Shown piece after piece: positions 452 to 54,567 of a stretch of 64,000 bases of DNA (position 1 is its first letter; every line of letters starts with the position of its first letter). The notes under the pieces were generated by a model. The model ran no database searches. It was given only the letters and a program-made list of their open reading frames with translations, and was not told where the DNA came from. The DNA comes from Tribonema minus (lineage: Eukaryota; Sar; Xanthophyceae; Tribonematales; Tribonemataceae). Position numbers and translations under genes: made by a program. Location of the stretch: the NCBI GenBank assembly GCA_017506865.1, contig JAFCMP010000052.1:62001-126000 (forward strand), in the 5' to 3' direction.

Positions 452-3400
452 ATGGGGCAGCGACGCCAGCGGCGGCAGCTGCGACTCTGCGCCAGATTGT
501 TGCTGCTGAGCGCGCTGCCTCTGACGGTGTTCGTTGTCAGGACGGCTGCGCGGGGACTGCTGGGGGGGTCTCGGGATCCTCAACCTTCAGGAGTGGTTGA
601 CTTCCCCGCGGTCGAAGGCAGGGAGTGGAGAGCTAAGGACGTGTACGTTACTGGCGAGGGCACATTTGTAAGCTTTTGCAACATGAACATCGCGGACTAT
701 CAAAGGTGAGAGAGCGATTTGATTGTCTCATTGGGCGGCAACGAGAACATTTGCCCAAATAACGTGACACGATGCGCTGCGATGGACTAACAGTTACATT
801 ATTGCACCCGCTTAGTATGATTGCGAATGGAATTCAAGTGCATGGCAAGGACATGACAGTTTGCATCTCACAATACACTTGAGAATCAGAAACTTCAAGT
901 CGATGGCGAGAGGAGATTTCATACCGAGAACTACCGTTAGTGATGTGCTGTGATGTTGATGATCGCAGGACTGCGGCAGTGAATCGAAAGTAGCAGATTA
1001 ATGTCAGCATCACTTTCATCATCATCAGCAAGCACAATGCGTGTCAATTCTTGAAGTTCAGATAGCCTGAACGTTGTCCCCCATAGCAGTGTTACCATGA
1101 GTCAGAATGTGGCTGTATTGACGTCTTGCCAGTGTTTTTACATGGTCCCTCAATAGTGGCCGTGACAGCTGCTGTGCAAGTCCTGCTAGTGGTTAAAATC
1201 ATGCATACTTGAAGTAGCGCATGGCATGACAGCTGCAGCAACAACGGCGACACAGCCATAGCGCCACCGCAAAGACCACTAATCATGCACACGCTGAACA
1301 GGATGCCTCTTGCTTTGGTGGGGGCGCGCTACGATGTCATGAACGATGACGCACAGGCCGCCATGGAAGCCCACGCTCAATGTTTTGTTCCTTTCTCTAC
1401 AATCTGCATGACCTGATTGCGCGCTGGTGCCTAGACAGCATGCAGCGGGGCTCGAGATGTTTGCAACATATACGGATGTTGTCGAAAGCGTGACGCTCGG
1501 CACACTGACCGCCTGCAGAGCAGTATCGGTCAGACACGACCACACAGCAAATACCCGCGCCGCCGCCGCCGCAGCCATGCGCACGCTGCGCCGAATGCGC
1601 TGCAAAATGCTTGATACCGCTCCATCTCAACGACAGCCCCCTCCGCCGCGAAACGCATTGGTCTTCGCTCGCCCCGCCGCGCGTGCTGCGTACATGCGAC
1701 CGCAGCACGCGCCTCCAACGCCCACGCCGTAGCATACACACATAAACATATATACATACCTGCAGCAGCGCTCAACCGCGATGCCGCCGCCGCCGACCGC
1801 CTCGCGCCGCAGCGAGCCGTGGAAGACGCCCATGGACCAGATGCTGGCGGTCGCGTCCAACTGCCGCAGCCGCACGCACACGCGCAAGTACAGCCTGGCG
1901 GACCTCATGGTGAGGCTGCACGCTGCATGAGGCGCGTGGGGCAGGGCTGTCGAGCACCGCCGTGGAATGACTGTGAAGTGGCTTCGCGCTGATCGCTGTC
2001 GTTGCGTGCAGCGCTGCTGCTGCCAGCTTCGCGCTGATCGCTGTCGTTGCGTGCAGCGCTGCTGCTGCCGCCGCCTGTTGCCGTTGCCGCTGCTGCTGCT
2101 GCTGCTTACAGTGTTGGTGAAACCGCTGCGGCGCCGCGCTGTTGCCACGGTGCTTGGGAGTTACACTTCACATCAGATGACGCGTAAATTTGCCCCATGT
2201 GGCGGACGCGCATGTTTCACGTCGTGACGCGGCCGCGGGAGGAGCGCTGCCGCAGCGTGCACTCGGCTTGCAGGGGCGCAGAGAAGCCGTGTGGAGCGCT
2301 GTGGCAGCGGGGCTATGAGGGTTAGGGTTAGGGTAAGGGTTGCTGTGAGGCTGAGGCAGCGCTCAGCACACGCCCGCGCAGCAGTCTCACGTGGGCGACG
2401 GAGCATGACGCTGAAGGGAGAGGAGAAGTCTCGTATGCATCTATATAAGTACATGTAGAAGTGCGTGTTCTGTTGTACCTGTCAGAGGTTTCTTTCCCAC
2501 GGCGCAAAAAAGTCCAGATTGTCCACGCCAAGCTTGCGACCCCTTGTGACAAAGTGTCTCCATGCGCATCGGCAGTAACTTCTGAACGACACCACCAAAT
2601 GGCATCATCCGTTGTGCACCAAGCACTGTCGTACGGTAGCTCGCTCTCATTGTCAGCGCAGCAGCAGCAGCAGCCGACCGACGCGCATGGCAGCGCTCAT
2701 CGCTCCGGCGCCGCGCGCATGTGCTGCGCCGTCGCGCTCACGCATTCCCCCTCACACTGCCTGTCACGCATCAGTGGCACACTGAGCACTGAGCACGCAG
2801 CGCCCCCTCCCTCTCGCGCCCTCCCTCCCTCGCTCTCTCGCGCAACGTCGCGTGCGCGCGCAGGCGCACCAGCAGCGCAACCCCGAGCGCTACCTGTCGC
2901 CGTCGGGCTTCATCCACCACGAGACGCGCTGCGGCTCCACGCTCGTCGCCAACATGGTGAGCATGCGCATTGGAGCGTGTCACTGCTCTGTCCATTTAGG
3001 GTTAGCCCTGATTCCAACACTAAATGCGGGGCAAGGGCTAGGGTTAGGGTTAGGCGTGCGCGCGCGTTGTGAGCGTCACTGCTTCGTACGCGTGCCGTGC
3101 GACGTGCGTGCGCGCGACGGTGTTTCCTTTGCGTCCGACGGACGGGCTTTTGTGCAGGTCAGGCGGAAGGGGGGCTGCGCTGATGTTGCTGAAGCGGTGT
3201 GTGCGCAGAATCGCGCAGATCAGGGGGGCGGGCATGGCGTTATGTGCAAGTACTGTAGACAGGAGGTGCTGTTCATCATCAGACATGAGCTGTAACAACA
3301 GGCCGTCGACCGTGGCACAACGGCGACGTTTGAGGAAATGGCCGGCGCCTGATGCTGCTGCCATGCGCGTCCGCAGCAACGTCGCTGCGACAACGTCACG

Positions 3401-53600: not shown

Positions 53601-54567
53601 GAGTTATGCGGCCTGTGGCAGCCGTTAGGGTTAGATGAGGGGACGCGCCTTGCGGCCGTCGTCGATGACGCACAGGCTGGGCAGGTATGTATGCAGCATT
53701 GCACCAATTGGCAACTGCAGGCTATCGAAGTCGTGCCGTCCAGCACGGGCACGCTGCAGGCGTGCTTCGTGTCTCATGACGACGAGTTCTGCGGCTTGCG
53801 GCAGCCGTTAGGTTTAGGGTTAGGGTTAGATGAGGGGACGCGCCTTGCGGTCATCATCGAAGACGCGCAGGCTGGGCAGGCATGTATGCAGCGGCGGCAT
53901 CAAGCGCAGATTCTGCGTCTTTTATCTCCCACTTCAAGTAGAAGTGTCGCACTGAGCGCAGATTCTATACATCGGGCGCGTGACTCGTCGGACATGCTTC
54001 AAAGGTGGCATAGAGTCACCATCGTATGGCACCGAGCCCAGACCATTTGTTCCCTGGCTACAGCTCAGCGGTACACACCTGCAAAGGGAATCCTTTCGGA
54101 GCAGAGAGCGGTGGCAAGTGTGGTGACGGAGCAACATGCGAGCATTACAAATTTATTGATCGCTACGCAATCAGTTTGCAAGCGGCATTGGCACATGCAG
54201 GTGGTCGTGCGGTGGAGCACTGCCTCGTGCTGAGCCCCCCGCAATACAGGTTTATGAAGCCGTGCTCTCAACCATAGCAACGCTGCATGTTTGCTTTGCG
54301 TCTCATGAACACAAGAAGAACTGAAGCCTGCGGCAGCTTTGGAGACCTCTTATGGCACCGTTGCTTTGCATGCCACGGCGTCGTTCCTTTGCGTGCCACA
54401 CAAGACTTGAAGTTCGGGCAAGTGCATACACGAGTCTGCTTTGAGAAGCCATGGACATCTCATTCCGCTGCACTACCGCACTGCTGCAGGTGTTTAACGC
54501 GCCCCTGGGCTTCAAGGCGCAGGCCATGGACACACTCAAGGCCTTTACCGGCGGCGCCAAGAAATGA
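41601..54567 (+). CDS. fadH: 2,4-dienoyl-CoA reductase (NADPH), bacterial FadH type, 15 exons
   Basis: Exons are 41601-41711, 42175-42345, 43005-43238, 43766-43935, 44372-44552, 45431-45496, 46725-46850, 48144-48223, 48695-48901, 49264-49444, 50129-50256, 50829-50990, 52252-52408, 53187-53321 and 54490-54567. They give a complete phase-consistent 728-residue protein (E. coli FadH has 672). The N-terminal Old Yellow Enzyme barrel has [35 protein letters not shown] and [10 protein letters not shown]. The 4Fe-4S motif is CIACNQAC with the fourth Cys in [10 protein letters not shown]. The C-terminal half has the FAD site [12 protein letters not shown] and the NADPH site [17 protein letters not shown]. 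It reduces 2,4-dienoyl-CoAs in unsaturated fatty acid beta-oxidation. No PTS1 (ends GGAKK) and no clear transit peptide are seen. Introns after 43238 and 48223 have GC donors. Confidence 0.95.
44598..44903. mobile_element. Foldback (MITE-like) inverted-repeat element
   Basis: Two arms of about 120 bp are inverted copies of each other around a loop of about 65 bp. The left end gttgtgatgtggcgcgcgcc pairs with the right end ggcacgcgccacgtcatcaa. Internal matches include agagttgagcgga/tccgctcaactct, ggagtcttgag/ctcaagactcc and gcgtttacgcg/cgcgtaaacgc. It sits in the intron after fadH exon 5. No clear target-site duplication was found. Confidence 0.75.
46445..47290 (+). repeat. Junction copies on both sides of fadH exon 7
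   Basis: An upstream acceptor copy at 46445-46485 (caggtgctggcgcgcggcga) mirrors the exon start at 46725. Downstream, the donor block gagatcaacacgtgcatcgc plus ctgcaa(t/c)cag recurs with junctions at 47018, 47182 and 47286 after the real site at 46850 (spacings 168, 164 and 104 bp). The first copy is long, repeating most of the exon from gacccgtactcggtgaga, and remains open in frame, so alternative use is possible. Confidence 0.88.
47476..47632 (+). repeat. About 78-bp tandem repeat in a fadH intron
   Basis: Two copies share gcaaaggttat.attacttca, tcagtgtgt, attccctgcagccaggggtg and acactctacct. The unit contains a cctgcag-like splice-site remnant, so it may derive from the older junction array just upstream. 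Confidence 0.85.
52038..52600 (+). repeat. Junction copies on both sides of fadH exon 13
   Basis: An acceptor copy at 52038 (cctgaagaagcacggcgtgc) precedes the real exon at 52252 by 214 bp and matches it for nearly 50 bases. Downstream of the real donor at 52408, copies of gccgctcagggacctgcag and the following gtac.taca end at 52506 and 52588 (98 and 82 bp apart). A weaker copy (aaagtcctgcagatacctg) lies near 52765. Confidence 0.88.
53430..53885 (+). repeat. Three decayed copies of the fadH exon-14 donor junction
   Basis: The real site at 53321 ends gatgcgcaggctgggcag. Copies end at 53507, 53684 and 53879 (186, 177 and 195 bp apart), each with a gc.gtcat/gtcgt-type block, gcaggctgggcag and a gtatgtatgcag or gcatgtatgcag continuation. 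The last two carry a (g)ttaggg run immediately before gatgaggggacgcgcctt, so a telomere-like insertion is part of the unit. Confidence 0.88.

Follow-up and report, generated by a model that had tools for sequence, protein, structure and literature searches.

Junction copies in five genes

The window, which is the whole stretch of 64,000 nucleotides of Tribonema minus DNA analysed here, carries a sulfotransferase-like gene, a kelch gene (kelch Pfam match), a lectin-like gene, fadH, and a gene for glucosidase II beta (PRKCSH-like Pfam match). Imperfect copies of the adjacent exon-intron junction were found within introns of all five, as an earlier note on this DNA had claimed. The gene models are home-made predictions from the sequence, in which some sites (e.g., donors 46850 and 10399) were placed manually. 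The arrays are given below with the position of the working site and the offsets of its copies.

4989..5201, + strand: sulfotransferase-like gene, acceptor 5188, weak copies at -94 and -185 (71% identity, the weakest of the set)
6581..6880, + strand: sulfotransferase-like gene, donor 6612, three downstream copies at +92, +169 and +254
7526..8190, + strand: sulfotransferase-like gene, donor 7581, four downstream copies at +162, +307, +424 and +569, separated by TTAGGG-like filler
9005..9340, + strand: sulfotransferase-like gene, donor 9033, two downstream copies at +193 and +268, adjoining a TTAGGG tract
9772..10319, + strand: sulfotransferase-like gene, acceptor 10278, three upstream copies at -509, -335 and -173
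10371..10888, + strand: sulfotransferase-like gene, GC-type donor 10399, four downstream copies at +112, +243, +367 and +477
13848..13998, - strand: kelch gene, stop codon 13968, end of the coding sequence copied once more in the 3'UTR
16472..16950, - strand: kelch gene, donor 16896, three copies deeper in the intron at +139, +249 and +374
29491..29719, + strand: lectin-like gene, donor 29532, one copy at +115
30477..30866, + strand: lectin-like gene, donor 30508, two copies at +144 and +319
46430..46765, + strand: fadH, acceptor 46725, one upstream copy at -279 (46446)
46776..47341, + strand: fadH, donor 46850, three downstream copies at +168, +332 (placed by a separate analysis) and +436
51976..52295, + strand: fadH, acceptor 52252, one upstream copy at -214 (52038)
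52360..52617, + strand: fadH, donor 52408, two downstream copies at +98 and +180
53275..53892, + strand: fadH, donor 53321, three downstream copies at +186, +363 and +558
61560..61745, - strand: glucosidase II beta gene, donor 61710, a single copy at +115 within its own intron

The glucosidase II beta copy was missed by the blastn arrays and lies beyond the interval covered by the earlier note (452..54567). That note had also found it meaningful that the copies always lie on the intron side. Geometry alone dictates this, since by definition the working copy is the one that adjoins the exon.

Our sample amounts to ~0.36 Mb of the 158 Mb nuclear genome of the alga. Beyond the window, comparable arrays occur in the C445 block and in L031, L032, L004, and L037. 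The latter, a light-harvesting gene, has two extra acceptor copies; its relative L036 (90.4% identical) has none in the 1.4 kb examined upstream. The light-harvesting family gave 92 matches, and its nearest solved relatives are named LHCI-11, followed by ACPI/CAC. TTAGGG arrays were also seen at one end of contig C289. These features are consistent with a photosynthetic alga, probably one of the red-plastid lineage. We searched for homologous contigs that could reveal copy-number polymorphism and found none for fadH or for a Tic22-like stretch; contigs C90 and C179, 94.6% identical over 3.8 kb, show no clear junction array in either. When 8.2 kb of fadH, arrays included, was compared with the other contigs, the sole match among the candidates scored (40 of 376, very common words skipped) was an intronic element of ~206 bp outside the arrays, and the 8 kb Tic22-like stretch gave only short matches.

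Placement of the arrays at coding edges

Using blastn, we called 37 tandem arrays in 60 introns (54.8 kb) of 11 genes, some of them picked once arrays had already been noticed, with other predicted genes of the C445 block omitted. Of these arrays, 28 include 12 bp or more of exon sequence (14 of 18 inside the window and 14 of 19 outside). Uniform placement expects 7.9, and none of 200,000 draws reached the observed number. The count of interior arrays includes the one at donor 9033, which blastn failed to join to its exon. The nine interior arrays (~16 per 100 kb) match the density of a gene-poor block of 100 kb (C112), where identical criteria gave 16 arrays. When the window was compared with itself, 49 local direct pairs were found versus 1 or 4 inverted ones in two runs.

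Part of this excess could arise if tandem duplication were uniform and neutral, with purifying selection on the exons: junction arrays would then be the edge-overlapping part, kept recognisable by the conserved exon copy. Such a process accounts for the geometry and, as described below, for units of mixed origin, decaying donor copies, and the frame contrast. In a simulation of it (uniform duplications, frozen exons, and deletions), 320 arrays were detected and 117 of them (37%) lay at junctions, which corresponds to ~14 of 37. The observed 28 of 37 departs from this share (P ~2e-6; 1.5e-4 were the true share 45%). A second test was unselected: a 50-mer spanning each junction was used, and a copy was counted at a score of at least 20. 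Copies were found at 17/74 donors and 11/74 acceptors, counts inflated by some predicted exons that in fact represent decayed copies (e.g., at 46446-46472 of the window), compared with 16/222 intron-interior and 5/66 exon-interior points; seven reversed or inverted controls gave none at this score. The enrichment is significant at donors (Fisher P 0.0005), but acceptors by themselves fall short of significance (P 0.061). Relative to intron interiors, the ratios are 3.2 for donors and 2.1 for acceptors, versus 0.58 and 0.59 in the uniform simulation.

Windows of 50 bases taken only from introns are free of the conserved-exon bias and show little edge excess, as uniform duplication would have it. 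On the donor side, the excess is modest (58/272 within 200 bp versus 23/169 at 350-500 bp), and on the acceptor side there is none (36/272 versus 26/169). This test is diluted because the spare copies of edge arrays occupy the deeper windows too. Repeat coverage at the edge is ~0.2, the same as in the adjoining 200 bp of intron, with no peak at the edge. The intron-only result limits the claim that junctions are duplication hotspots. Taking both sides together, we consider uniform neutral duplication an unlikely explanation of the arrays.

Units, decay, and reading frame of the copies

The copies were listed in detail at 39 junctions flagged beforehand by a repeat-coverage scan. Reversed sequences gave nothing at 38 of the 39; the exception, a C-rich acceptor (C445 96723), scored up to 19. 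Retention was analysed for 92 copies in 36 arrays, omitting junctions C445 82386, 50308, and 79214 and some weaker copies. As had been proposed from the first inspection, exon bases are joined to intron bases within the units, with a median of 53 exon bases in 87 copies.

Copies of the coding end also lie in the 3'UTR at two of the eight stop codons inspected, among them that of the kelch gene (one of the two was spotted by eye); a splice junction is therefore not required. This bears on the idea that junctions in particular are duplicated by a process coupled to splicing or transcription, for which R-loops or splice-site breaks are examples. Donors and acceptors are both in excess (58 copies in 20 donor arrays and 34 in 16 acceptor arrays), as such a process would predict, but it explains neither the copies at stop codons nor units that extend so far into the exon, which put the breakpoints away from the splice site. 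We regard it as quite improbable.

The copies diverge from the working junction by 4-38%. Exon-side bases of the 58 donor copies are retained at 0.78-0.92, and intron-side bases past the first five at 0.67-0.74. These copies look neutrally decayed, being near the 1:2 divergence expected when the working exon alone is constrained; among acceptor copies, the contrast between exon and intron is weak. With reciprocal detection, the identity of copies to the working junction is 0.733 (exon) and 0.674 (intron) for donors and 0.692 and 0.685 for acceptors, with a background of 0.556. Among spare copies, where data are sparse and the background is the same, it is 0.631 (exon, 7 arrays) and 0.633 (intron, 16 arrays) for donors, and 0.645 (5 arrays) and 0.668 (7 arrays) for acceptors. 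Decay along the array is weak: identity falls only slightly with distance in the 17 arrays with at least three copies (the rank correlation averages -0.33; permutation P 0.016), and the nearest copy is 0.780 identical versus 0.756 for the farthest (25 arrays). Some changes are common to several copies, e.g., at C445 84105, which indicates that copies arise from copies too.

Spacings in 32 edge arrays are divisible by three in 32 of 87 cases and so ignore the reading frame. In contrast, all eight arrays lying within predicted exons, mostly of low-complexity proteins, have spacings divisible by three (Fisher P 0.0006). Selection for in-frame inclusion of the copies is disfavoured by the edge spacings, which are random with respect to frame. 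The same indifference argues against the copies being functional, whether as splice sites (decoy or alternative) or as small cassette exons. Splice dinucleotides are mostly kept (48 donor copies have GT and 7 have GC, out of 58; 28 of the 34 acceptor copies have AG), 46 donor and 21 acceptor copies score at least 3 as splice sites, and by eye AG-like ends stand just before several donor copies. However, retention falls smoothly from the anchor with no peak at the splice site, and the close paralogues L037 and L036 differ in copy number. A function for the copies is very unlikely.

Still less probable is that the arrays are leftovers of introns that originated when an exon segment containing AGGT was tandemly duplicated (the Rogers/Hellsten model). 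The class of mutation is identical, and multi-copy cases are known, such as the fission yeast example cited in PMC4974935. However, in the 60 introns, intron starts resemble the start of the next exon no more than in shuffled pairs (mean score 6.67 versus 6.89), nor do intron ends resemble the end of the preceding exon (7.28 versus 7.33), so these introns lack the mark expected had they arisen from a duplicated piece of exon. An assembly artefact has a negligible probability, since the copies diverge with individual patterns, excluding identical-copy errors, and arrays recur in many genes and several contigs.

Proposed growth of introns from coding edges

The explanation we prefer, and to which we give an even chance of being right, is that coding edges are enriched in small tandem duplications, which persist where the spare copy comes to lie in noncoding DNA. 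Such duplications, spaced mostly 60-200 bp apart, would be frequent in the alga and in excess at the edges of coding sequences. The duplicated segment would begin in the exon and finish in the adjacent noncoding DNA. The change would be nearly neutral, as the outermost copy would still supply an intact reading frame and a functional splice site (or stop codon), and the spare copies would land in the intron (or 3'UTR) and decay. Judging from the sequence, the outer copy alone is probably spliced. Successive rounds at one edge would produce up to seven spare copies and a longer intron, while duplications wholly within exons are seen solely in multiples of three. We infer that duplication begins preferentially in or near exons, rather than that edge arrays are retained for longer. 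A bolder version, which we put forward tentatively and think somewhat more apt to be wrong than right, makes splice junctions and stop codons hotspots of tandem duplication, with selection on the outer copy driving one-way outward growth of introns and 3'UTRs, so that a sizeable share of intron sequence would descend from decayed edge copies.

Median intron length is 1075 where a junction array is present (n=23) and 572 where none is (n=37; Mann-Whitney P 0.002), in a comparison where longer introns also offer more room for detecting an array. Together with the arrays themselves, this favours the earlier proposal of intron lengthening by repeated junction-spanning tandem duplication with one working copy; the stop codons remove the need for a splice junction from it.

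Introner elements are dispersed repeats that make up intron sequence. Repeats account for intron sequence in both cases, but the algal unit is tandem and, as far as we searched, private to its own junction; it comprises exon as well as intron bases rather than the intron itself, the distinction that the earlier note had drawn. Like intronic minisatellites, the algal arrays consist of tandem units that measure tens to hundreds of bases. They differ in that most are tied to a coding edge and one member is under selection. Ordinary minisatellites would be placed independently of exon edges; the placement test found otherwise, but the gradient in intron-only windows is weak or absent.

To our knowledge, the origin of long introns, transposons aside, is poorly explained, and the arrays look like an overlooked route of intron growth. 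The route is testable. Tandem arrays cover 24.8% of the sequence of the 60 introns, about a quarter, and they are mostly edge-anchored with copies still readable. The earlier note knew of no named description, and no account of serial junction copies was found in the literature searched, which comprised no preprints and a minority of subscription journals. Novel intron positions in Drosophila, attributed to tandem duplication or intron sliding (PMC2891723), likewise involve a local coding duplication with one copy intronised. However, new positions arise there from a duplicated proto-splice site, and the accessible part of that paper does not describe arrays of junction copies. In the potato RdRp case, as given in PMC4974935, the duplicated segment itself spans intron-exon structure. 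It resembles the algal arrays as a tandem duplication within a gene that leaves one copy outside the mature message. It differs in that a new intron was made once, whereas existing introns are lengthened serially at many edges in the alga, which also has similar copies at stop codons.

The arrays provide a natural series of decaying splice sites that can be used to study splice-site choice. They are also a warning for annotation: gene predictors will take decayed copies for exons, as happened here at window positions 46446-46472.

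Sampled sequence and gene models

The window covers bases 62001–126000 of contig C52; the genome comprises 158,181,000 bases in 554 contigs. Together with other loci of the same genome, we examined approximately 0.36 Mb: two arbitrary 100 kb blocks (C112, which is gene-poor, and C445), four 10 kb segments surrounding kinase matches that are split into two or more parts (L029–L032), two homologous 7.5 kb pieces (L033, C90 760001–767500; L034, C179 148201–155700), and twelve short loci (L001–L008, L035–L038). Gene models were produced by a small gene finder trained on exons seen in the window. 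The exons of nine genes were joined by hand, and six of these genes have Pfam matches above the cut-offs. Adding two kinase fragments (L029, L030) gave an 11-gene set, which was partly chosen once arrays had already been seen and leaves out other predicted C445 genes.

Genes joined by hand and their Pfam matches
Kelch gene, minus strand: above cut-off
fadH: above cut-offs (Oxidored_FMN and Pyr_redox_2)
Ribosome hibernation factor (S30AE), window 34799–40867, minus strand: above cut-off; no tandem arrays found in its introns in the scan of the 11-gene set
Glucosidase II beta subunit, minus strand: above cut-off
SLC25 carrier, C445 block: above cut-off
CDPK-like kinase with EF hand: above cut-off
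Sulfotransferase-like gene: match below cut-offs
Tic22-like gene: match below cut-offs
Lectin-like gene: zero matches in the Pfam search

Copies of exon–intron junctions within introns

The earlier note had described repeated copies of splice junctions inside their own introns. This was borne out by aligning 39 flagged junctions to their introns and by the sequences of 16 arrays: the exon end, the splice site, and the intron start travel together.

Examples of junction arrays
Donor 7581, window: four copies
Donor 10399, window, placed by hand: four copies
Donor 46850, window, placed by hand: three copies
Donor 53321, window: three copies
Acceptor 10278, window: three copies
SLC25 donor, C445 block 21489: seven copies across 1.1 kb
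Tic22-like donor, C445 84105: six copies, 70–95 bp spacing
Kinase locus L004, presumably Aurora-type from its sequence: about six copies past the donor, read by eye

The pattern is real and non-random. Local repeats are far more often direct than inverted in the window (49 vs 1–4), in C445 (142 vs 10), and in C112 (71 vs 3), and introns with junction arrays are about twice as long as those without. Copies are mostly spaced by 60–200 bp (median 124, maximum 478) and carry a median of 53 exon bases. The exon extent is often uniform within one array (29–31 bases at donor 10399), as expected if an initial duplication was later multiplied. GT is retained in 48 of 58 donor copies (GC in 7) and AG in 28 of 34 acceptor copies; retention declines smoothly away from the junction, and copy identity drops slightly with distance. 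In donor copies the intron side has diverged about twice as much as the exon side, which is the prediction of neutral decay against a constrained exon, while acceptor copies show little contrast between sides. A reciprocal test agrees with these retention data: the identity of donor copies to the working junction is 0.733 on the exon side and 0.674 on the intron side, and that of acceptor copies 0.692 and 0.685.

Arrays can differ between close paralogues. The light-harvesting genes L036 (C79) and L037 (C1) are 90.4% identical over 768 bp; L037 has two additional upstream copies of an acceptor and exon start, and L036 has none in the sequence examined. Arrays were therefore gained or lost within that divergence time. 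Separately, L033 and L034 share 94.6% identity across 3.8 kb, a hint of either a segmental duplication or haplotypes that have diverged.

Placement of arrays at exon edges

Two tests indicate that placement at edges exceeds the neutral expectation. In all 74 introns passing the gene-finder thresholds, where some predicted exons are themselves copies, a junction-spanning copy of the 50-mer centred on the junction was found at 17 donors and 11 acceptors; of 222 interior points, 16 had one. The donor-to-interior ratio is 3.2; simulated uniform duplications with frozen exons gave 0.58, i.e., junctions below the interior. Of the 37 arrays in the 60 introns belonging to the 11-gene set, 28 share 12 bp or more with an exon (18 at donors, 10 at acceptors), and uniform placement expects 7.9. 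Edge arrays remain recognisable for longer because their exon copy is conserved. A simulation with a conserved exon copy and deletions gave an expected edge share of 37% (117/320), against 76% observed (P ~2e-6). The excess is also seen when the count is restricted to genes above Pfam cut-offs (13/17, P 0.001) and outside the window (14/19).

Interior arrays are as dense (9 in 54.8 kb of intron) as arrays in the C112 block (16 in 100 kb), counting one (9155–9545) that is part of the donor 9033 array and two (19288–19416, 79912–80117) that come to about 11 bp or less from an exon edge. A further test favours the edges less strongly. Among 50-base windows lying wholly in introns, copies were found on the donor side for 58/272 within 200 bp and 23/169 at 350–500 bp, and on the acceptor side for 36/272 and 26/169, in a test diluted because deeper windows are often spare copies of edge arrays. 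Repeat coverage is level between a point 40 bases within the exon and one about 200 bases deep in the intron. From the intron-only windows, coding edges are thus not proven to be duplication hotspots on the acceptor side.

Origin of the arrays

Spacings of edge arrays show no preference for frame (32, 21, and 34 with remainders 0, 1, and 2 modulo 3), whereas in arrays wholly inside predicted exons they are divisible by three in 8/8. Duplications thus do arise in coding sequence, persist there in frame, and persist across the edge in any frame.

Stop codons, of which we surveyed eight, extend the pattern. In the SLC25 gene (C445 block 18747–19026), the last ~34 coding bases and TAG recur in the 3'UTR at about +133, and a second copy, its stop lost, lies at about +245. 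In the kelch gene (window 13848–13998), the coding end and TAG are repeated once in the 3'UTR. Of the two, the kelch stop alone passed the automatic criterion; the SLC25 case, missed because the match ends two bases beyond the stop codon, was recognised by eye. These copies argue against a mechanism requiring the spliceosome and point to the boundary where DNA under constraint meets DNA free of it. The earlier proposal of serial duplication with one working copy was right in outline, and its tie to splice junctions too narrow.

We therefore favour exon-proximal duplication: duplications would begin within exons or close to them, and would persist only where the spare copy falls in noncoding sequence. 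Alternatively, edge arrays may be preferentially retained, for example if collapse with a decayed copy would harm the exon.

The mutation is of a known kind, at an unusual scale. The nearest published process is intron gain by tandem duplication, for which PMC4974935 gives a potato case whose duplicated segment includes an intron–exon structure, and PMC2891723 related Drosophila cases. Its diagnostic signature was looked for here and is absent. Our literature search turned up no description of junctions copied in series, nor of edge-anchored intron growth, and the pattern is apparently undescribed.

Other repeats were observed. An intronic element of ~206 bp in fadH (window 49433–49668), a dispersed repeat or perhaps an introner/SINE, matches at least 39 other places at 77–81% identity. 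Degenerate TTAGGG tracts, many intronic, lie at window 2316–9286, 11398–11448, 27326–27385, and 53625–53831 (56 matches at ≤2 mismatches vs 1.24 expected); contig C289 starts with a TTAGGG array, probably a telomere. The 9-mer ACTTCAAGT has 16 matches in the window vs 0.24 expected (e.g., 892, 10673, 33017, 53931), often, by eye, close to its own reverse complement within introns. A 315 bp repeat occurs in inverted orientation at window 5769–6083 and 37051–37367 (89.7% identity), with a third, partial copy at 7226–7309. Genome-wide, 5S rRNA has at least 47 matches over many contigs.
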